Positions 21,642 through 37,995 of a DNA stretch of 41,483 nucleotides are shown here, in pieces. The stretch spans positions 1 through 41,483 of the forward strand of contig JAPUFX010000192.1 in assembly GCA_027293415.1 (NCBI GenBank), read 5' to 3'. The notes under the pieces were generated by a model. The model was given only the letters and a program-made list of their open reading frames with translations. It was not told the origin of the DNA and made no database searches. Source of the stretch: Candidatus Methylomirabilota bacterium. Its GTDB lineage: Bacteria > Methylomirabilota > Methylomirabilia > Methylomirabilales > CSP1-5. Position 1 is the first letter of the stretch. Each line of letters starts with the position of its first letter. Made by a program: the position numbers and the translations under genes.

Positions 21642-22478
21642 TTATCCGCAGATTTTTTGGATGAGCCGGTCCAGATCCTCGTCGGAGTAAAATTCCACCT
21701 CGATCCGGCCACGGCGGCCACTTCGGACGATCCGAACCTTTGTGGCCAAGGCCCGCCGCAACTGCTCTTCCACAGAGGCCAACTCCGGACCGTGCCGGGT
21801 GAGTTTTTGATGCCTTTCCGCGGGACCAGCCTTGAGTCGCTTTACCAAAAGCTCCGTAGCCCGAACCGAAAGGCTGCGCCTGATGATCGACTCCCGTGCT
21901 TTCAGCTGGTGGACCCGACCCTCCAGGCCCAACAGCGCGCGGACGTGGCCGGCAGAAAGGGTCCCTTCGATCAAGTCCTCCTGGATCCTTGTGGGAAGCT
22001 TAAGAAGGCGTAACGTATTGGCAACGGAGGCGCGATCCCTTCCAACCCTTGTGGCCACCTCCTCCTGGGTCAGCCCAAACTCTTCAACCAACCGGCGATA
22101 GACGTCCGCTTCCTCAACGGGGTTGAGGTCTTCCCGCTGGAGGTTCTCGATCAGGGCAACCTCCAGCATCTCCGCGTTGGATGCATCCCGAATCACGGCT
22201 GGAATCCGCTCGAGCCCCGCGCGCTCGGCAGCGCGGACGCGCCGCTCCCCCGCAATAAGTTCGTAGCCGTCTTGGCTTTGTCGCACTATAACGGGGGAGA
22301 GGACTCCGTGCCCGCGGATCGAGGCGGCAAGGTCCTCTAATTTATTATCATCAAAGCGTCTTCTGGGTTGAAAGGGGCTAGGGCGGATCTCCGTTAACGG
22401 GATCTCGACTGCCCGCGGTCCTGGCTTTTCGGGGGGGATGAGGGCCTCAAGCCCCCGGCCGAGTGCCTGCCGTCCCAT
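21642..22478 (-). CDS. parB: Chromosome-partitioning protein ParB (Spo0J)
   Basis: ParB is the CTP-dependent clamp that loads on parS and spreads to organise the origin. The 278 residues contain the N-terminal [10 protein letters not shown] and the CTP-binding segments PFQPRRRF and GERR (77-80). [14 protein letters not shown] (111-124) and the helix-turn-helix region [28 protein letters not shown] follow, then a C-terminal dimerisation domain. AAGGAGGTGATCG upstream is a near-ideal ribosome-binding site inside parA. It overlaps parA by 32 nt, and two parS sites lie 0.85 kb upstream. Confidence 0.97.
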
Positions 22479-23229
22479 CGATCACCTCCTTTGCGAGCTT
22501 GAGATACGCCTCCGCCCCGGCCGAGCGGATATCGTAGAGGATGATTGGCTTCCCGAAGCTCGGCGCCTCGCTCAGACGGATGTTCCTTGGGATCAGGGTC
22601 TCGAAGACCCGTCCCGGAAAGTTCCTCCGAACGTCCTCCACCACCTGCCGGCTGAGGGTCAGGCGGCTGTCATACATGGTAAAGACGACTCCCTCGATCA
22701 TGAGGCCCGGATTAAAAGAGCGGCGGACAAGGCGGAGCGTCCTCAACAGGTGAGTCAGTCCTTCCAGGGCGTAATACTCGCACTGTAAAGGGATGAGGAT
22801 GGAGTGGGCTGCTGTCAAGGCATTCAGGGTCAAGAGACCCAGGGAAGGGGGGCAATCGACCAGGACATACGAATACTCACCAAGGAGTTCCTCGATCGCT
22901 TCCTTTAGTTTTCGCTCCCGCCCCTCCTCCCGCACCAGCTCGATCTCCGCCCCCAGCAGGGCGGGGTCTGACGGGAGCACATCGAGCCCAGGGATCTCGG
23001 AAGGGCGGAGCGCCTCAGCGGCCTTGGCCTTCCCGATGAGAACCTCGTACAGATAAGGCCCCGGTCCCTGCCGGGAAATACCCAGTCCGGAGGTGGCGTT
23101 TCCCTGCGCATCGATGTCTACTAAAACGGTGCGTTTCTCGGCGGCAGCGAGACAGGCAGCCAGGTTTACGGCGGTGGTGGTCTTTCCTACTCCTCCCTTC
23201 TGATTGGTGACCGCGATCACCCGTGCCAC
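22447..23229 (-). CDS. parA: Chromosome-partitioning ATPase ParA (Soj)
   Basis: ParA is the Walker ATPase that moves ParB-parS complexes along the nucleoid. From the GTG at 23229 (GGAGGATATTG upstream) the protein is 260 residues: VARVIAVTNQKGGVGKTTT with the deviant Walker A motif KGGVGKT (11-17), VDIDAQGNATSGLG, and LVDCPPSLGLLTLNAL. A longer reading to ATG 23355 would run through parS DNA and is rejected. The 32-nt overlap with parB suggests tight coupling. Confidence 0.96.
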   Translation of the reverse strand: MARVIAVTNQKGGVGKTTTAVNLAACLAAAEKRTVLVDIDAQGNATSGLGISRQGPGPYLYEVLIGKAKAAEALRPSEIPGLDVLPSDPALLGAEIELVREEGRERKLKEAIEELLGEYSYVLVDCPPSLGLLTLNALTAAHSILIPLQCEYYALEGLTHLLRTLRLVRRSFNPGLMIEGVVFTMYDSRLTLSRQVVEDVRRNFPGRVFETLIPRNIRLSEAPSFGKPIILYDIRSAGAEAYLKLAKEVIDGTAGTRPGA

Positions 23230-23301
23230 CAATATCCTCCGCGTCCTCCGTTTCGCATTGCCCGGAAGATAGCACGTCGCTCCTCGGGGGGGAAAGGAAA
23301 A

Positions 23302-23317
23302 TGTTTCACGTGGAACG
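23302..23317. promoter_or_regulatory. parS site 1 (one mismatch to the palindrome)
   Basis: TGTTTCACGTGGAACG matches the bacterial parS consensus TGTTTCACGTGAAACA at 14 of 16 positions. On the minus strand the TGA inside this site is the stop codon of rsmG. Confidence 0.85.
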
Positions 23318-24019
23318 TCCGCGGCGTGCCGGAACCGGTGTTTCACGTGAAACACTGTCCGTCTTCACCATCACCAGAAGGTGTCGATCGCCACTCGTGG
23401 GCATCGCTCCCTCAATTCTGAGATCGGGGCGCCTGAGGGTCTCTGCCTCCCTCGGCCATTGGGGCCCTACGGGGAGAAGGAGATGTCCCCCCGTCTTCAG
23501 AAAAGGGGCGCAGAGGGTGACGACCGCCGGCAGCCTCGCCACAGCCCTGGCCGTCACCAGATCATAGGCCCCTCGATGGATTGGATCGGACAGAAGCAAT
23601 TCCGCCCTGGTGTGAAGCACAGAGATGCGAGAGAGCTGGAGGAGGCGGACAGCCTGCCTCAGAAAGGAGGCCTTTTTTCCCGTGGCCTCCACAAGGGTAA
23701 TCGTAAGGTCGGGGGTGGCAATTTTGAGAGGAATGCCCGGAAGGCCCGCACCACTGCCGATGTCAATGAGCCGAAGGTCAGGCCGGAAGCGAAATGCCTT
23801 CAAGAGGCTCAGGGATTCCAGGATCCCGTGTCGGACGAGCGCCTCATCGGTTCGAAACCCGACGAGGTTCGCCCTCCGATTCCAGCGCTTGAGTTCCTGC
23901 AGGTACGTGAGAAAAAGTTCGAATTGTTGGTCGGTGATGGAAAGGCCTAGCCGCGTTATCCCGCGCTGGAGGAATTTCTTTGCCGCCTCATCCAGGGAGG
24001 ACTTCCACTCTTTTGCCAC
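23306..24019 (-). CDS. rsmG: 16S rRNA (guanine-N7)-methyltransferase RsmG (GidB)
   Basis: RsmG methylates G527 of 16S rRNA with SAM. Signature segments are ELKRWNRRANLVGFR, the SAM-binding IDIGSGAGLPGIPL, VEATGKKASFLRQ, and VTARAVARLP. GTG 24019 is chosen (237 residues, GGAGG about 11 nt upstream). The longer reading to 24115 adds low-complexity residues from a purine-rich spacer. The last codons pass through the two parS sites: the C terminus SVSRETP is encoded by parS 2 and the stop by parS 1. It sits between mnmE and parA, the common origin-proximal arrangement. Confidence 0.94.
   Translation of the reverse strand: MAKEWKSSLDEAAKKFLQRGITRLGLSITDQQFELFLTYLQELKRWNRRANLVGFRTDEALVRHGILESLSLLKAFRFRPDLRLIDIGSGAGLPGIPLKIATPDLTITLVEATGKKASFLRQAVRLLQLSRISVLHTRAELLLSDPIHRGAYDLVTARAVARLPAVVTLCAPFLKTGGHLLLPVGPQWPREAETLRRPDLRIEGAMPTSGDRHLLVMVKTDSVSRETPVPARRGRST
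23339..23354. promoter_or_regulatory. parS site 2 (perfect 16-bp palindrome)
   Basis: TGTTTCACGTGAAACA is the exact bacterial parS consensus, 37 bp from site 1 and within the coding end of rsmG. It is the presumed loading site of the ParB encoded downstream. Confidence 0.95.
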
Positions 24020-27844: not shown

Positions 27845-27979
27845 CTAAACTGTCAGGCGCTTTCTGCCCTTTGCGCGCCGACGATTCAGGATGCGCCGAC
27901 CCGCTTTTGTTCTCATCCGGTGCCGAAATCCGTGGGTCCGCTTTCGTTTGGCGCGCTTCGGCTGATACGTCCGCTTCAC
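27845..27979 (-). CDS. rpmH: 50S ribosomal protein L34
   Basis: This 44-codon gene translates from GTG as [20 protein letters not shown] and continues [24 protein letters not shown], a full-length L34. CAGGGCAGGGAGGAGCGA immediately upstream is a strong ribosome-binding site. It is the first gene of the leftward rpmH-rnpA-yidD-yidC-mnmE unit and is transcribed away from the origin, from the promoter at 28024-28052. Confidence 0.97.
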
Positions 27980-28052: not shown

Positions 28053-28633
28053 TCGCCAATCCACATTTCTCTCGCCTAGAGACAAAAACTAGTTGTGGTC
28101 CCCTGGCTGAAATGCTACAATTTCTTGTGGGGTTGGCTGGTCCACCCCTCGATCGGGTTCTGCGCTGCTCCGACGAGTTGTGCCTTTCTAACTGTTTGAT
28201 TTTAAATGGTTTTATGGTTTTCCACAGCTGTGGAAAATGTTGTGCGTAACTCCGGTGCTGCTCTCACAACCATCTAAAGGGGGTGGGGGCGGTAGAATGC
28301 ACGCGGGGCGCGGCTTGACACATGTGGAAAGCGATCCAGTGAAGCGCAGTGCGGTGTCGGACACTGTCGTCATCCCCAGTCGCGAAGGGCTGGGCGTAAC
28401 CGGGAGACGTTGATAACCAGGGAAATGGAGCGGGGAAGGTTGTGGACCAGATGAGGGATATGGGCGGCTGGGGACGCGCTCCGATCCAATCCACAACCTG
28501 TTCCCCCTTCTCTCCCAAGACAGACTCTCGATTTTCCTTTGGTTTCCGGTTTTCCACAAAGCCTACTACAACGACTCATTTTATTTTTCTTTATTATAGT
28601 AAGTTGACCTACTGAATTTCGGGGGGGAGAAGA
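28053..28633. other. Replication origin region (oriC)
   Basis: This gene-free stretch of about 580 bp separates leftward rpmH from rightward dnaN. DnaA-box-like 9-mers include TTTTCCACA at 28218-28226 and 28550-28558, its reverse TGTGGAAAA at 28229-28237, TGTGGAAAG at 28323-28331, and an inverted pair GGTTGTGGA (28438-28446) / TCCACAACC (28490-28498). The first two face each other as a perfect 20-bp palindrome (28218-28237). An AT-rich stretch (about 28577-28604) next to the last box could be the DNA-unwinding element. GC-skew switching of gene strands and nearby parS support an origin. dnaA is not adjacent. Confidence 0.85.
28218..28237. repeat. Palindromic DnaA-box pair
   Basis: TTTTCCACA and TGTGGAAAA are separated by GC and form an exact 20-bp palindrome. 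Each half differs from the classical TTATCCACA box by one base. Head-to-head boxes with no spacing could bind two DnaA molecules cooperatively. Confidence 0.8.
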
Positions 28634-29749
28634 ATGCACATCCAAGTGCTTCGAGGGCCATTCCTGAGCACGCTAGCTCAGATTCAAGGGGTGATCGAAG
28701 CAAAAAGGACGCTTCCTATTCTCTCTCACCTCCTCCTCGAAGCAAAGGAAAATACTATCAGCATTTCAGGAACAGATCTCGACGTGAGTATACGAACTAC
28801 CCTCGACGGGGATGTCAAAAATGAGGGAAGAGTTGCTGTCTCTGGCAAGAAACTCTACGAAATCGCGCGGGAACTCCCCGATACTTCGATCGATCTGCGT
28901 TGGCAAGAACCGCAAAACCTCGAGATCATTTGCGCAAAATCAGTTTTTCGCCTGAAGGGGGCCGCACCAGAGGAGTTTCCCGCCTTTCCTGAAATCGCCG
29001 AGGGAACAGGGATCACAGTGAATGCCGAAACACTCCGGGGAATAATCTCCAAGGTCCTTTTTGCCGTGTCGACAGACCAAACGCGACCAACCCTGACCGG
29101 AGCCCTGCTGCAAATTACGGCGAGCGATCTTCGGATTGTGGCCACCGATGGTCATCGCCTCTCGCTGGTCACGACTTCCTTCGACTCAGCAAAGGATCAA
29201 GAAAAGGATCAAGACATGCTGGAGGCGATCATCCCCCGGAAGGCCCTTGTGGAACTAGGAAAGATGCTCAAAGATGAATCAGGAGAGATCCGATTGATCC
29301 CCCTTGGTCACCAGATGGGCTTCCTCCTGCCCCAGAGCCGCCTGATCAGTCGGTTGATTGAAGGACAATTTCCCAACTATGAGCAAGTCCTCCCGTCTCC
29401 CAGCGGCCCAGGAGCCGTCGTTCGCCGCGAAGATTTCCTAGGAGCGCTTCGCCGCACTTCCACCATTGCTGGGGACCGAGCGACGCCGACCGTGTTGGAT
29501 CTGAGAGGGGGGCGACTGCTCATCTCCTGCACCAATGTCGATCTCGGTGAGGCAAAGGAAGAGCTCTCCATGGACTATCAGGGCCCGGAGGTCACCGTCG
29601 GCTTTAATGCAAAGTATCTCCTGGACTTCTTGGGTGTGGTAGAACGAACCGAAGTTGAGATGCGCATTCAAGATCCATTGTCACCTGCCGTATTCGAACC
29701 GGCGAAAGGGGAGGGGTTTAGCTGCGTCATTATGCCCATGCGGATCTAG
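28634..29749 (+). CDS. dnaN: DNA polymerase III sliding clamp (beta subunit)
   Basis: This 371-residue clamp has the three-domain repeat pattern: MHIQVLRGPFLSTLAQIQGVIEAKRTLPILSHLLLEA in domain 1, TRPTLTGALLQI and ATDGHRLSLV in domain 2, and the canonical C-terminal VIMPMRI tail. GGGGGGGAGAAGA precedes the ATG. It begins right after the oriC AT-rich element, in the place normally held by dnaA, and is followed by a terminator and gyrB. recF, the usual next gene, is absent. Confidence 0.98.
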   Translation: MHIQVLRGPFLSTLAQIQGVIEAKRTLPILSHLLLEAKENTISISGTDLDVSIRTTLDGDVKNEGRVAVSGKKLYEIARELPDTSIDLRWQEPQNLEIICAKSVFRLKGAAPEEFPAFPEIAEGTGITVNAETLRGIISKVLFAVSTDQTRPTLTGALLQITASDLRIVATDGHRLSLVTTSFDSAKDQEKDQDMLEAIIPRKALVELGKMLKDESGEIRLIPLGHQMGFLLPQSRLISRLIEGQFPNYEQVLPSPSGPGAVVRREDFLGALRRTSTIAGDRATPTVLDLRGGRLLISCTNVDLGEAKEELSMDYQGPEVTVGFNAKYLLDFLGVVERTEVEMRIQDPLSPAVFEPAKGEGFSCVIMPMRI

Positions 29750-29826: not shown

Positions 29827-32298
<2,472 letters not shown>

Positions 32299-32317: not shown

Positions 32318-34810
32318 GTGCCAGAGGATCGGATCGAGCAGCCGCGAATCGGCGAGGTGAGGCCGACCGACATCCACGACGAGATGCGCCGGTCCTACCT
32401 CGACTACGCCATGAGCGTCATCGTCGGCAGGGCCCTGCCCGATATCCGGGATGGGCTCAAGCCGGTCCACCGCCGCGTGCTCTACGCGATGCAAGAGTTG
32501 GGGCTTCCCTTTAATCGCCCCTATAAGAAGGCAGCCCGGGTGGTCGGAGAGGTCCTGGGGAAGTACCACCCTCATGGCGACACCGCCGTCTATGACACGC
32601 TTGTCCGCCTGGTGCAAAATTTCTCTATGCGGTACCCGTTGATCGACGGGCAGGGGAACTTTGGATCGGTGGACGGGGACGCGCCGGCGGCGATGCGATA
32701 CACCGAGGTCCGCCTGGCCCGAATCGCCCAGGAAATGCTCCGGGACATCGACAAAGAGACGGTCGACCTTGTCCCGAACTTTGACGACACCCTTAAGGAG
32801 CCGGCCCTCCTTCCTGCCGCAATCCCCAACCTGCTCGTCAACGGGAGCTCGGGAATCGCCGTCGGGATGGCCACCAACATCCCGCCGCATAACCTGGGTG
32901 AGGTCACGGATGCGACGATCCTTCAGTTGGAGAACCCCGACGCGTCGCTGGAGGAGCTCATGGCGGTCCTGCCAGGGCCGGACTTCCCGACAGCGGGACT
33001 CATCCGCGGCCGCGCAGGGATCGTGGAGGCGTACCGGACCGGCCGGGGCCTGATTCAGATGCAGGCCAAGGCCTTCGTGGAGAAGGGGCGCGGAGGCCGC
33101 GAGAGCATTATCATCTCGGAGCTTCCGTATCAGGTGAACAAGGCGAAGCTCGTCGAGCGGATCGCCGAGCTGGTCCGCGACCGAAGGCTGGACGGAGTGT
33201 CGGATCTTCGGGACGAATCAGACCGCGAAGGGATGCGGATCGTCGTAGAGCTGAAGCGGGATGAGGCACCCCGGCTCATCATGAATCAACTCTACAAGCA
33301 GACCCCCATGCAATCCACCTTTGGCGTGATCATGCTGGCCCTGGTGGATAACCAGCCGAAGGTGTGCCCCTTGAAGCAGATCTTGCAAGCATTCATTGAT
33401 CACCGCCGAGAGGTGGTCCTGCGCCGGACCCGCTTCGACCTCCGCAAGGCTGAGGAGCGAGCCCACATCCTCGAGGGCTACCGGATCGCGCTGAACCACC
33501 TGGACGAGGTCATCGCCCTGATCCGGCGCTCGCGAACGGTCGACGATGCCAGGACAGGACTGATCCAGCGGTTCTCCATGACCCCGGTCCAGGCCCAGGC
33601 GATCCTGGACCTCCGCCTGCAGCGGCTGACGGCACTCGAACAGCAGAAGATCCAGGAAGAGTACCAAGGGATCCTGCAGACCATCGCGCGGCTACAGGCC
33701 ATCCTCCAGAGCGAGGGGCTAGTGCGGCAGATCATCAAGGAAGAGCTGGTGGCCCTGAAGGAGACCTATGGTGATCCCCGGCGGACACAGATCGAGGCGG
33801 AGGCGACCGAGATAAGCCTCGAAGACATGGTGGCCGATGAGGAGATGGTGATTACGGTCACCCACGGGGGCTACATCAAGCGAAGTCCGCTTAATGTGTA
33901 CCGCGCTCAGCGGCGGGGTGGAAAAGGGATGACCGGCATGGCCACCAAGGAGGAGGATTACGTGGAGCACCTCTTTGTGGCTACCACCCACAGCTATATG
34001 CTCTTCTTCACCAATCTGGGCCGGGTCCACTGGCTGAAGGTCCATGAGCTTCCCCAGCTCGGCCGGGCGGCCCGGGGCAAGGCCATTGCCAACTTCCTCC
34101 AGCTTCAGGCGGGGGAGCATGTCACCACCACGATTCCCATCCGCCAGTTCGAGGTCGACCGGTATCTCATTATGGGCACGCGTCGGGGGGTCGTGAAAAA
34201 GACGGAACTCAACGCCTATGCGCATCCGCGGGCAGGAGGGATCATCGCCTTGTCGCTGGATGAGGGGGATGAGCTGATCGGTGTTGCGATGACGAGGGGG
34301 ACGGAGGACGTCTTCCTGGGGACCAGGAAGGGTATGGCGATCCGATTCCGTGAAGGCGATGTGCGTCCGATGGGCCGGACAGCCCGAGGGGTTACAGGGA
34401 TCAAGCTTGGACGCGGAGACCACGTGGTGGGAATGGAAATCGTGTCCGAGGAGGCGAAGATTTTGACCGTGACCGAGCGGGGGTTCGGGAAGCGGACCGA
34501 TGTTCCCGAGTACCGGCTCCAAGGACGGGGCGGCAAAGGGATCATCAACATTCGGGTGACCGACAAGAATGGACCGGTTGTGGGGATTAAACAGGTCCGG
34601 GAAGATGACGGGGTCATGATGATCTCTCAGGAAGGGAAGATCACTCGCCTTGCGGTTCGAGAGGTTCGCGATACGGGTCGGGCGGCACAGGGGGTGCGGC
34701 TGCAGGGCTTGGGCGAAAGGGGCCGAGTTGGCGCGGTGACGGCCCTGGTGACGGAGGAAGAGGAAGGCGTGGGCGAGGAAACCCCCCAGGAGGAGCCAGA
34801 GCAGACCTAG
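32318..34810 (+). CDS. gyrA: DNA gyrase subunit A
   Basis: GyrA breaks and rejoins DNA in gyrase. From GTG 32318 (AAAGGA upstream) it has 830 residues. The catalytic Tyr is Y128 in [10 protein letters not shown]. The quinolone-determining region reads [10 protein letters not shown], with Thr89 at the position of E. coli Ser83 and Asp93 at that of Asp87, natural in several taxa. The C-terminal beta-pinwheel has a GyrA box in QRRGGKGM (about residue 530), which identifies gyrase rather than topoisomerase IV. The acidic tail [18 protein letters not shown] follows. Confidence 0.98.
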
Positions 34811-36213: not shown

Positions 36214-36302
36214 GGAGGGGTGGCCGAGTCAGGTTTAAGGCGGCGGTCTTGAAAACCGTTAGGCGATGAGCCTCGTGGGTTCGAATCCTACCCCCTCCGC
36301 CA
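36214..36302 (+). tRNA. tRNA-Ser (TGA)
   Basis: An 89-nt cloverleaf with a long variable arm typical of tRNA-Ser. The acceptor GGAGGGG pairs with CCCCTCC, the anticodon loop CTTGAAA gives TGA, the T arm is GTGGG-TTCGAAT-CCTAC, and CCA is encoded. It decodes UCA and, by wobble, other UCN codons. Confidence 0.96.
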
Positions 36303-36340
36303 CGCAATCGTTCAGAGCGCATAGCTGAGCGTCCAGAGGC

Positions 36341-36420
36341 GAGAGCTGAGAGCTAACAGTTGAGAGTTGAGGGCAGAATCTCGGCTTTCTGGTTCTTGCT
36401 CTCAACTATCCGCCCTCGAC
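36341..36420. repeat. Heptamer hairpin E (GAGAGTT type), between the two tRNA-Ser genes
   Basis: GAGAGCT/GAGAGTT/GAGGGCA heptamers at 36341-36375 face an inverted set (TGCTCTC, AACTATC, CGCCCTC) at 36397-36420 across a 21-nt spacer. The heptamer differs from D and F, but the inverted-array design is the same. Confidence 0.8.
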
Positions 36421-36436
36421 TATAAGCGAATGAAAC

Positions 36437-36531
36437 GGAGAGGTGGCCGAGTCAGGCTTAAGGCAGCCGCCTGCTAAGCGGTTGTAGGGTGATGAGCTCT
36501 ACCCCGGGTTCGAATCCCGGCCTCTCCGCCA
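36437..36531 (+). tRNA. tRNA-Ser (GCT)
   Basis: A 95-nt serine tRNA with a long variable arm (about 22 nt). The acceptor GGAGAGG pairs with CCTCTCC, the anticodon loop CTGCTAA gives GCT, the T arm is CCGGG-TTCGAAT-CCCGG, and CCA is encoded. It decodes AGU/AGC. Confidence 0.97.
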
Positions 36532-36534
36532 TTT

Positions 36535-36618
36535 TCAGCAGTCCGCTGTCAGCAATCAGCTGTCAGCATGAAGGCGAGAATAAGGATCTTTGCTGACTGC
36601 TGACAGCCGACAGCTGCT
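36535..36618. repeat. Heptamer hairpin F (TCAGCNN type), before tRNA-Arg
   Basis: Five heptamers (TCAGCAG, TCCGCTG and similar) fill 36535-36569 exactly. The inverted set lies at 36590-36618. Reverse-complemented, the right arm matches the left at 20 of 23 aligned positions. It belongs to the same family as hairpin A, 32 kb away, including a similar spacer. Confidence 0.85.
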
Positions 36619-36625
36619 TCACAGG

Positions 36626-36702
36626 GCGCCCGTAGCTCAGTTGGATAGAGTGCCTGGCTACGAACCAGGAGGTCGGGAGTTCGAATCTCTCCGGGCGCAC
36701 CA
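36626..36702 (+). tRNA. tRNA-Arg (ACG)
   Basis: A 77-nt cloverleaf: acceptor GCGCCCG with CGGGCGC, anticodon loop CTACGAA (ACG, read as inosine-CG), T arm GGGAG-TTCGAAT-CTCTC and encoded CCA. It decodes CGU/CGC/CGA. It marks the boundary between core genes and the accessory stretch that follows, and its 3' half resembles the tRNA fragments at 38.7 and 41.4 kb. Confidence 0.97.
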
Positions 36703-36732
36703 CCATATCGACACTAATCCATGGCCCGCAGG

Positions 36733-36774
36733 AAAAAGCAAAACGCCCTCGCGGGCCGCTACCCGAGAGGGCGT
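36733..36774 (-). terminator. Intrinsic terminator, leftward
   Basis: On the minus strand ACGCCCTC (36774-36767) pairs with GAGGGCGT (36750-36743) with an inner CGGG/CCCG pair, followed by TTTGCTTTTT. It sits 37 nt past the tautomerase-fragment stop and would end haemolysin III transcription. Confidence 0.8.
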
Positions 36775-36810
36775 CTGGTTCGCCGTGCTCTGCACGACTA
36801 CTTCGTCAGG

Positions 36811-36951
36811 TTACCCTGCCGCGAGCTCCTTGACATCCTGGGTAGTCAATCCCTTTCCACCGATCCCCCAATCGCCGCGCTTCACCTCGTCGATCACGAC
36901 CCAGGTGACCTGACGCATGTTCTCACCCTCGACAGAGACCATTGCGTCAAG
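36811..36951 (-). pseudogene. C-terminal fragment of a 4-oxalocrotonate-tautomerase-family protein
   Basis: Downstream of the haemolysin III stop and in the same frame, the sequence reads TLDAMVSVEGENMRQVTWVV and then IDEVKRGDWGIGGKGLTTQD, ending VKELAAG. This is the C-terminal two thirds of a small tautomerase of the group with TDAMVSVEGENM and EEVKSGDWGIGG. The N-terminal strand with catalytic Pro1 is missing and similarity stops near 36951. An ATG at 36942 could still give a 43-residue peptide, but it would lack the catalytic residue. I read it as a deletion remnant that kept the original terminator. It is recognised by memory of the family, not by search. Confidence 0.6.
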
Positions 36952-36972
36952 AGTCTCTATGGCGTTGTTCGC

Positions 36973-37650
36973 TTAGGCCGCGTACCACAGCACCGCGATG
37001 AAGTGACATGCGGTGCCTGCCATAACGAACAGGTGCCAGACGAAATGGCTGTAGGGGACCCGCTTCGCGGCGAAAAACACTACACCCCCCGTGTACGCGA
37101 TGCCGCCTGCAAGGAGCCAGAACAGACCCCACGGTGGCACACGGAGCACCAATGGCTTTACCGCGATGAGGACGAGCCACCCCATGGCGAGATACACGCA
37201 TGTCGAAATGACCGGGTACCGTATCCCGCCGACAGCCTTGAGGACGATACCAGCAACGGCCAGACTCCACACGAGCACGAACAGCGTCCAGCCCCACGGG
37301 CCGCGGAGCACGCCAAGCGTGAACGGCGTGTACGTGCCCGCGATCAAGAGGTAGATCGCTCCGTGATCGAGAACCTGGAATACCCGCTTGGCCCGATTCT
37401 TTGGCAACGCGTGGTACAGCGTGGATGCGAGGTACAGCACCACCATCGTCGCCGCAAAGACGCTCACGCCCAGAATTCCCGATACGCCGCCACGCTGAAG
37501 TGCGGCAAGGACGAGAACTGGGGCAGCAGCCACTGCCGCCAGCAAGCCGACACCATGGCTGACGCTGTTCGCGATTTCTTCCCCGAGCGACTGCGTGCGT
37601 TCTCGCCGTGCGGGCGCCTCGATCACGACTCTATATCCTGCGCGGCCCAT
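36973..37650 (-). CDS. Haemolysin III / YqfA family (PAQR-like) membrane protein
   Basis: This 225-residue protein with seven predicted helices has the family motifs: NSVSHGVGLLAAVAAAP near the N terminus, YLASTLYHALPK, LDHGAIYLLIAGTYTPFTLGVLRG, and HFVWHLFVMAGTACHF near the end. The three His-bearing sites match the zinc site of PAQR/HlyIII proteins. Bacterial members were first described as haemolysins but their physiological activity is unclear. It is the first gene of the leftward accessory block next to tRNA-Arg. It ends naturally, and the tautomerase fragment follows at once. Confidence 0.9.
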   Translation of the reverse strand: MGRAGYRVVIEAPARRERTQSLGEEIANSVSHGVGLLAAVAAAPVLVLAALQRGGVSGILGVSVFAATMVVLYLASTLYHALPKNRAKRVFQVLDHGAIYLLIAGTYTPFTLGVLRGPWGWTLFVLVWSLAVAGIVLKAVGGIRYPVISTCVYLAMGWLVLIAVKPLVLRVPPWGLFWLLAGGIAYTGGVVFFAAKRVPYSHFVWHLFVMAGTACHFIAVLWYAA

Positions 37651-37699
37651 CTACAATTGGGCTGCATAACCAATGTGGCAGACACTGCCATTCTTATAT

Positions 37700-37728
37700 C
37701 TTATACCCTAAATGGGATCGCTCGTAAA
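37700..37728 (-). promoter_or_regulatory. Candidate promoter of the haemolysin III gene
   Basis: On the minus strand TTTACG, 17 bp, TATAAG (4/6 and 5/6) lies about 50 nt before the ATG at 37650. Confidence 0.5.
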
Positions 37729-37995
37729 TGCATCTGCACTGGGATTTCCTGTAGGGCCCATGATGTAGCTGGCGGGCCAACGTTTGTGCCGGAGGTGGGC
37801 CAGGAGCTACGCCAACCCCGGTTCCATCTGTCCGTCTCATGAGGAGGGCCTCAGTATCCGCCACTGCGGATGGTGTGGCAAGCATGCGAAATAGGTCAAG
37901 GCAGATGCTCACCCGTGGTTCCTTTCCCGTGAATGTATTGTTGCAGGACTTGACCTCGCCTCCACTCTTCCATGTCCAGCATAAGAAAATACCGC
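37729..37995. other. Gene-free stretch upstream of the small-RNA promoter
   Basis: Short open frames on both strands (37694-37912 minus, 37839-38081 plus) have no ribosome-binding site and no recognisable product. Nothing else is seen. Confidence 0.5.

Follow-up and report, generated by a model that had tools for sequence, protein, structure and literature searches.

The window, by which we mean the whole stretch of 41,483 nucleotides under analysis, is contig C192 of a Candidatus Methylomirabilota draft assembly (G000; 221 contigs, 2.75 Mb). By dnaN, its closest named relative among the loci found is a Candidatus Methylomirabilis MAG, at 94% identity. From left to right the window carries the minus-strand genes parB and parA, with two exact parS matches, then mnmE, yidC, rpmH and a region of DnaA boxes, to the right of which dnaN, gyrB, gyrA and serS follow on the plus strand. 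A preliminary description of this DNA had read the order as rpmH, boxes and dnaN with no dnaA between them, and this reading is correct: no dnaA was detected anywhere in the window (tblastn, E 1e-15). The features of the locus are as follows.

21642-22478, minus strand: parB (Pfam ParB_N and HTH_ParB)
22447-23355, minus strand: parA, soj type (profile match)
23303-23316: parS GTTTCACGTGGAAC, one of just two exact matches to the pattern in all of the G000 assembly
23340-23353: parS GTTTCACGTGAAAC, the other of these two matches
27848-27979, minus strand: rpmH, divergent, the left border of the origin region (translation and tblastn)
28189-28217, plus strand: AT-rich stretch (TAACTGTTTGATTTTAAA...), immediately left of the box pair (by eye)
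28218-28237: exact 20-bp palindrome of two DnaA boxes, TTTTCCACA-GC-TGTGGAAAA (pattern search)
28241-28249, minus strand: third DnaA box, divergent, TGTGCGTAA, which with the palindromic pair completes a 32-bp module at 28218-28249
28323-28331, minus strand: weak DnaA box CTTTCCACA, one mismatch (box search)
28550-28558, plus strand: dnaN-proximal DnaA box TTTTCCACA, 300 bp from the module
28563-28568, plus strand: CTACTA, two DnaA-trio-like triplets (3'-GAT-5' on the opposite strand), 4 bp past the box at 28550
28578-28606, plus strand: AT-rich presumed unwinding element before dnaN (sequence reading)
28634-29749, plus strand: dnaN, encoding the beta clamp (TIGR00663, 292 bits)
29854-32298, plus strand: gyrB, directly after dnaN without recF between (profile match)
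32318-34810, plus strand: gyrA (profile match)

Immediately past serS are three tRNA genes (Ser-TGA, Ser-GCT and Arg-ACG; 36214-36702), and an open frame of 373 aa at 36721-37842 gave no Pfam or NCBIfam match at E 0.001.

The exact sequence TTTTCCACA occurs three times in the window (28218+, 28229- and 28550+), in each case within 28053-28633; in 100 shuffles of the window the mean number of copies was 0.21 and three were never seen. The boxes at this locus are therefore clustered beyond chance, as in origins of the DnaA type. Together, the boxes at 28218 and 28229 form TTTTCCACAGCTGTGGAAAA at 28218-28237, the exact 20-bp palindrome of facing boxes that had been reported. The pattern TTTTCCACA-NN-TGTGGAAAA at up to three mismatches was found in one place in the window (shuffle average 0.01), and the palindrome is the sole place in the 2.75-Mb assembly that matches TTWTCCACA-NN-TGTGGAWAA at up to two mismatches. 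The AT-rich stretch to the left of the pair has a counterpart in most of the relatives displayed (by eye). On the other side, the AT-rich DNA that had been described as running up to dnaN does reach near its start.

To place this arrangement within the phylum, we surveyed 95 genomes, comprising the order of methane-associated bacteria to which the window belongs (families f1-f6, 35 genomes) and families f7-f10 (60 genomes), which take in its sister lineage; tables were read by eye, and the counts of related genomes are raw, uncorrected for relatedness. Both genes were found in 54 of the 60 f7-f10 genomes, and dnaA adjoins dnaN in 53 of these, the exception (G037) having dnaN near a contig edge. 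In the order, dnaN and a dnaA match of more than 100 bits were found in 28 of 35 genomes and adjoin in none. The two genes are on different contigs in 27 of these 28, with adjacency not strictly excluded in G015 and G019, where dnaN is at a contig edge, and they lie about 207 kb apart in the single-contig genome G024. Sequence upstream of dnaN was readable in 28 order genomes (7 f1, 5 f2, 2 f3 and 14 f6, with locus L014 taken as G029 from contig coordinates), and none of them has a dnaA match in the 0.9 to 28 kb of upstream sequence covered. Left out of this count were G015, G016, G018 and G019, with dnaN at a contig edge or on a fragment, and G004, G005 and G027, in which dnaN was not found.

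Divergent rpmH is present upstream of dnaN in 26 of the 28 order loci, at 452-933 bp; the two misses are L114 (no match) and L116 (contig end). In all seven sister loci compared, rpmH is 1777-1862 bp from dnaN, with dnaA between. The preliminary description had named a mis-assembled contig as a possible source of error, and a draft of 221 contigs gives some ground for suspecting an assembly or binning artefact. Against this, the assemblies of relatives show the identical arrangement, which recurs at 28 loci, each from a different genome and one from a single-contig assembly. We take an artefact, whose probability we regard as negligible, to be refuted by these relatives.

The boxes share this conservation. 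A pattern for the 32-bp module was defined as the degenerate box pair given above followed by N(2-3)-TGTGNGTAA, with 26 informative positions, and the module of the window matches all 26. It is found upstream of dnaN, at no more than two mismatches of 26, in all 28 readable order genomes (with a gap one base shorter in f6). It is also found upstream of dnaA, again at up to two mismatches, in 21 of 21 regions from the sister lineage, some of which may be one species reached by two routes. In 27 shuffles the same pattern gave 9-13 mismatches. Long flanks were available for seven f7-type loci (L024, L025, L026, L029, L032, L035 and L046), which have the order rpmH, module, dnaA, short gap, dnaN; here the module reads TTATCCACA-NN-TGTGGATAA-NNN-TGTGNGTAA, and the gap between dnaA and dnaN holds CTAC-type triplets and AT-rich DNA. 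The module thus sits between rpmH and dnaA in the sister lineage, and in the order it precedes dnaN. The most economical history has dnaA taken out from between two halves of an origin, the sister layout probably being the ancestral one. A similar palindromic box pair was also seen about 1.08 kb upstream of dnaA in three Bacillota MAGs with contiguous dnaA and dnaN (L040, L041 and L042).

The module and the dnaN-proximal box are now 299-310 bp apart in all seven f1 loci. In f6, where the box was recognised in 13 of 14 loci, the distance is 140-143 bp, and two f2 loci have distances of 383 and 390 bp. At up to one mismatch, the proximal box was not recognised in three f2, two f3 and one f6 loci. 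Between the module and dnaN, 27 loci yielded no convincing remnant of dnaA (best tblastn E 0.35).

The gene itself is intact elsewhere in the genome of the window, as the preliminary description had suggested should be checked. It lies on contig C52 at 32770-34116, is full-length and carries the Pfam DnaA_N, ATPase and C-terminal domains. Five weaker DnaA_C matches besides this gene fall in open frames of 121-338 aa, and we think it unlikely that they represent extra dnaA genes. The one that was read, on contig C68 (L002, 204-1172), is a 322-aa protein ending in a DnaA C-terminal-like domain; by eye, it resembles a REP-associated transposase. Nine weaker DnaA_C matches were seen in the f2 genome G003.

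A search for recF, whose absence after dnaN had been noted as well, gave two matches in the whole assembly (32 and 21 bits), both below the 172-bit cut-off. Matches above this cut-off were obtained from 47 of the 57 f7 genomes, from f8 and f10 and from all four f3 genomes, and in the phylum such a recF lies mostly directly after dnaN by coordinates; the 31 genomes that make up f1, f2, f4, f5 and f6 gave none. The suggestion that its absence goes together with that of dnaA does not stand, since the f3 locus is without dnaA and yet retains recF beside dnaN (4 of 4 genomes), and we reject loss of recF as part of the event that displaced dnaA. Because f3 keeps recF and f1, f2, f4, f5 and f6 have none above the cut-off, the two changes are separate events. 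In the f7 genera g18, g21 and g26 (G070-G072, G078 and G084), recF is below the cut-off though dnaA adjoins dnaN, perhaps reflecting further losses.

If dnaA left the locus, the working origin may have moved with it, the boxes at dnaN being a relict or serving the regulation of dnaN. We consider this unlikely, though f6 does carry a conserved box cluster upstream of dnaA. A similar module, with TGTGGATAA as its third box, is present on the dnaA side in f2, f5 and f6, at no more than two mismatches in 16 of 16 regions compared, and in f6 the dnaN-side pair has decayed while the cluster beside dnaA is perfect or close to it. In f1, by contrast, no such module remains on the dnaA side (0 of 3; 8-13 mismatches), which tells against this reading. 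The f6 boxes, moreover, sit between a promoter-like TTGACA...TAAAAG and dnaA (by eye), in the manner of an autoregulated leader, and this placement suits autoregulation of dnaA. The dnaA-side module could be a copy carried along when dnaA moved. Nor is there a common destination, for among the 13 loci compared the near neighbours of dnaA are largely common within f1, f2 and f6 and different between them; we therefore rejected a single shared new neighbourhood for these loci.

Strand composition was used to discriminate between the two sites. Within the window, cumulative skew is lowest at 27-29 kb, and the k-mer strand score is negative in all four segments to the left of the origin region and positive in both segments to the right. 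Composition thus switches at this locus, as it does at an origin, and no flip was seen at the genome's own dnaA in the 14.6 kb of its contig that were read. The GC-skew check proposed in the preliminary description, run on the scale of the whole genome only in f6, has an ambiguous outcome there, with minima at dnaN and beside dnaA that nearly tie. In G024, raw GC skew is lowest at 10-25 kb, beside dnaA, and marginally below its value at dnaN (68.6% of bases). In G025, composition flips clearly some 10 kb past dnaA, independently of gene strand, whereas the flip at dnaN only tracks gene strand; local minima of the k-mer score lie at both genes. These skew minima beside dnaA favour an origin that moved with the gene. 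Strand-normalised third-position (GC3) skew shifts little in the window, follows gene strand at dnaN of G025 and shifts clearly at dnaA of G025. Raw GC skew was rejected as a sole test, being indecisive in f6.

A k-mer strand classifier (cross-validated accuracy 0.86-0.92, with training arms set from skew) placed the minimum of G024 beside dnaN in five of six settings, the sixth being a tie with 2.38 Mb. Two KOPS-like octamers were counted in the same genome. In the part that was read, counts of GGGNNGGG were 76:119 to the left of dnaN and 89:72 in the interval from dnaN to dnaA, which leans towards dnaN; GGGNAGGG, at 15:15 in that interval, is neutral. The octamers were set aside as an origin test, the numbers being too small to decide. 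A flat stretch of mixed skew spans about 0.4 Mb of G024 (2.34 Mb to 0.025 Mb). It has dnaN roughly at its centre and ends on the right at dnaA, and it could have arisen from inversions around the origin.

Sites connected with chromosome segregation point to dnaN. Exact parS matches number only two in G000 and two in G024, at about 5 kb and 3.4-5.4 kb from the box pair, respectively, and in the parts of G025 that were read parS is near dnaN and not near dnaA. A dif-like site at 1,169,466-1,169,487 of G024 is the sole core match at up to one mismatch, as against one match also for a backwards control pattern, and its 28-mer differs from two consensus forms at 6/28 and 8/28 positions. This site lies 1.5 kb from the skew maximum. 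Its antipode, 2,545,904, is some 20 bp away from the midpoint of the dnaN-side pair (2,545,914-2,545,933), and dnaA is 207 kb from the antipode. No dif-like site with zero mismatches was found in the fragmented G000 assembly. The expected setting of an origin, with parS nearby and dif opposite, is thus seen for parS in G000 and G024 and for the dif-like site in G024 only. Because they indicate dnaN in f6 as well, parS and the dif antipode argue against an origin that travelled with dnaA.

The same sites bear on a further alternative, that the boxes only serve autoregulation of the divergent rpmH and dnaN promoters, with the true origin lying at some third locus. The region is indeed a divergent promoter region, and the k-mer minimum of G024 at 2.38 Mb is almost as deep as that at dnaN. 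We hold this alternative to be very improbable, in view of a box pair that is unique in the G000 assembly, parS nearby, a dif-like site at the antipode, and the identical module in the rpmH-dnaA gap of the sister lineage.

The element next to dnaN was also compared with the basal unwinding system (BUS), which consists of a DnaA-box, a spacer and DnaA-trios (PMC8287927). In our version of the rule, a box with up to two mismatches is followed by a spacer of up to 16 and at least three trios. The f6 relatives fit the published layout, with 14 of 14 loci matching (spacer 9-13; trios such as CTA TTA CTA); under the strict rule, matches were found in 2 of 7 f1, 1 of 5 f2 and 0 of 2 f3 loci, and in the sister lineage 7 of 35 matched at shuffle p <=0.1. 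In the window, CTACTA stands four bases past the box at 28550 and the run then breaks, so that in contrast to the published system only two canonical trios follow the box; the count of three is reached only if the spacer is 16 bp and AT-rich triplets are admitted. While f6 has a clear trio element, that of the window's family is weak, as is that of the sister lineage. The 170 bp immediately preceding dnaN hold tandem [CT]TA triplets in 20 of 27 loci, compared with 5 of 15 upstream regions of dnaA that are three times longer (520 bp), which again speaks against an origin beside dnaA.

Several known origins resemble this one in part. In the cyanobacteria Synechococcus elongatus, Cyanothece and Anabaena, oriC with TTTTCCACA-type boxes is described beside dnaN, and dnaA is encoded apart (PMC4674748, PMC7198777). 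The window shares this layout, and common descent is not implied. The phylum is different, rpmH, gyrBA and parAB-parS here remain around the origin, and the sister order of rpmH, module, dnaA and dnaN reveals the former place of dnaA. A bipartite oriC with dnaA as spacer, and with one of its two box clusters beside a presumed unwinding region, is described for Bacillus subtilis and Helicobacter pylori (PMC8235120, PMC4285127); the B. subtilis spacer can be shortened experimentally (PMC4285127). The sister lineage has this spacer. The window likewise has two clusters and AT-rich presumed unwinding DNA, its second cluster being one clear box, at 28550; unlike these systems, the order is without the spacer gene in 28 of 28 loci, and its clusters are 140-390 bp apart. 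The UBP4 bacterium UBA6127 (L039) is possibly an independent case of a box cluster beside dnaN without dnaA: six exact boxes lie in the 800 bp before dnaN (5.2-6.0 kb), no dnaA is present in the 11-kb locus, and dnaA is elsewhere in the genome; its box pattern is different, and no rpmH match was found on the locus at E 0.01. The origin of E. coli lies outside the rpmH-dnaA-dnaN cluster. Origin and dnaA are separated in that species too (PMC8287927), whereas here the origin would have stayed in place and dnaA left.

On the evidence of sequence, then, the region from 28.2 to 28.63 kb is probably the chromosomal origin, derived from a bipartite ancestor from which dnaA has gone while both sub-origins were kept, with DnaA acting in trans. 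That the origin stayed with dnaN and dnaA was displaced, as first proposed, is supported by synteny, the module, parS, the flip in composition and the G024 dif-like site. The ancestral order would have been rpmH, box module, dnaA, a second element of boxes, trio-like triplets and AT-rich DNA, and dnaN, and dnaA would have departed in the ancestor of f1-f6. Both sub-origins would have been retained at the short spacing described above. DnaA made elsewhere is predicted to bind the palindromic module and the dnaN-proximal box, perhaps with contact between the two clusters, and to open the AT-rich DNA before dnaN. We assign the origin to the dnaN side with good confidence in f1 and with moderate confidence in f6. 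It is also conceivable, if quite unlikely, that dnaA left with a copy of the module to give two origin-like loci, so that f6 uses both, or the dnaA side as a second or alternative origin, and f1 has lost the copy, in a reciprocal decay of a duplicated origin.

Origins linked to dnaN without dnaA are already known in cyanobacteria, and the preferred reading, an origin that kept its place beside dnaN, adds another lineage. Judging from titles and the openings of abstracts, we found in the literature no account of the origin of Methylomirabilota, nor of a bipartite origin naturally deprived of its spacer gene. If the window and its relatives replicate in this way, there are practical consequences: origin finders that take dnaA as their anchor can miss by about 200 kb, as can records whose start is set at dnaA, and the G024 record may be such a case. 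According to a review, it is not yet understood why a spacer gene, in most cases dnaA, divides some origins, and the spacer matters in itself (PMC4285127). The order has apparently lost the spacer that its sister lineage keeps, which opens the role of dnaA between the two halves to comparative study and would provide a natural test of whether dnaA is needed within the origin.
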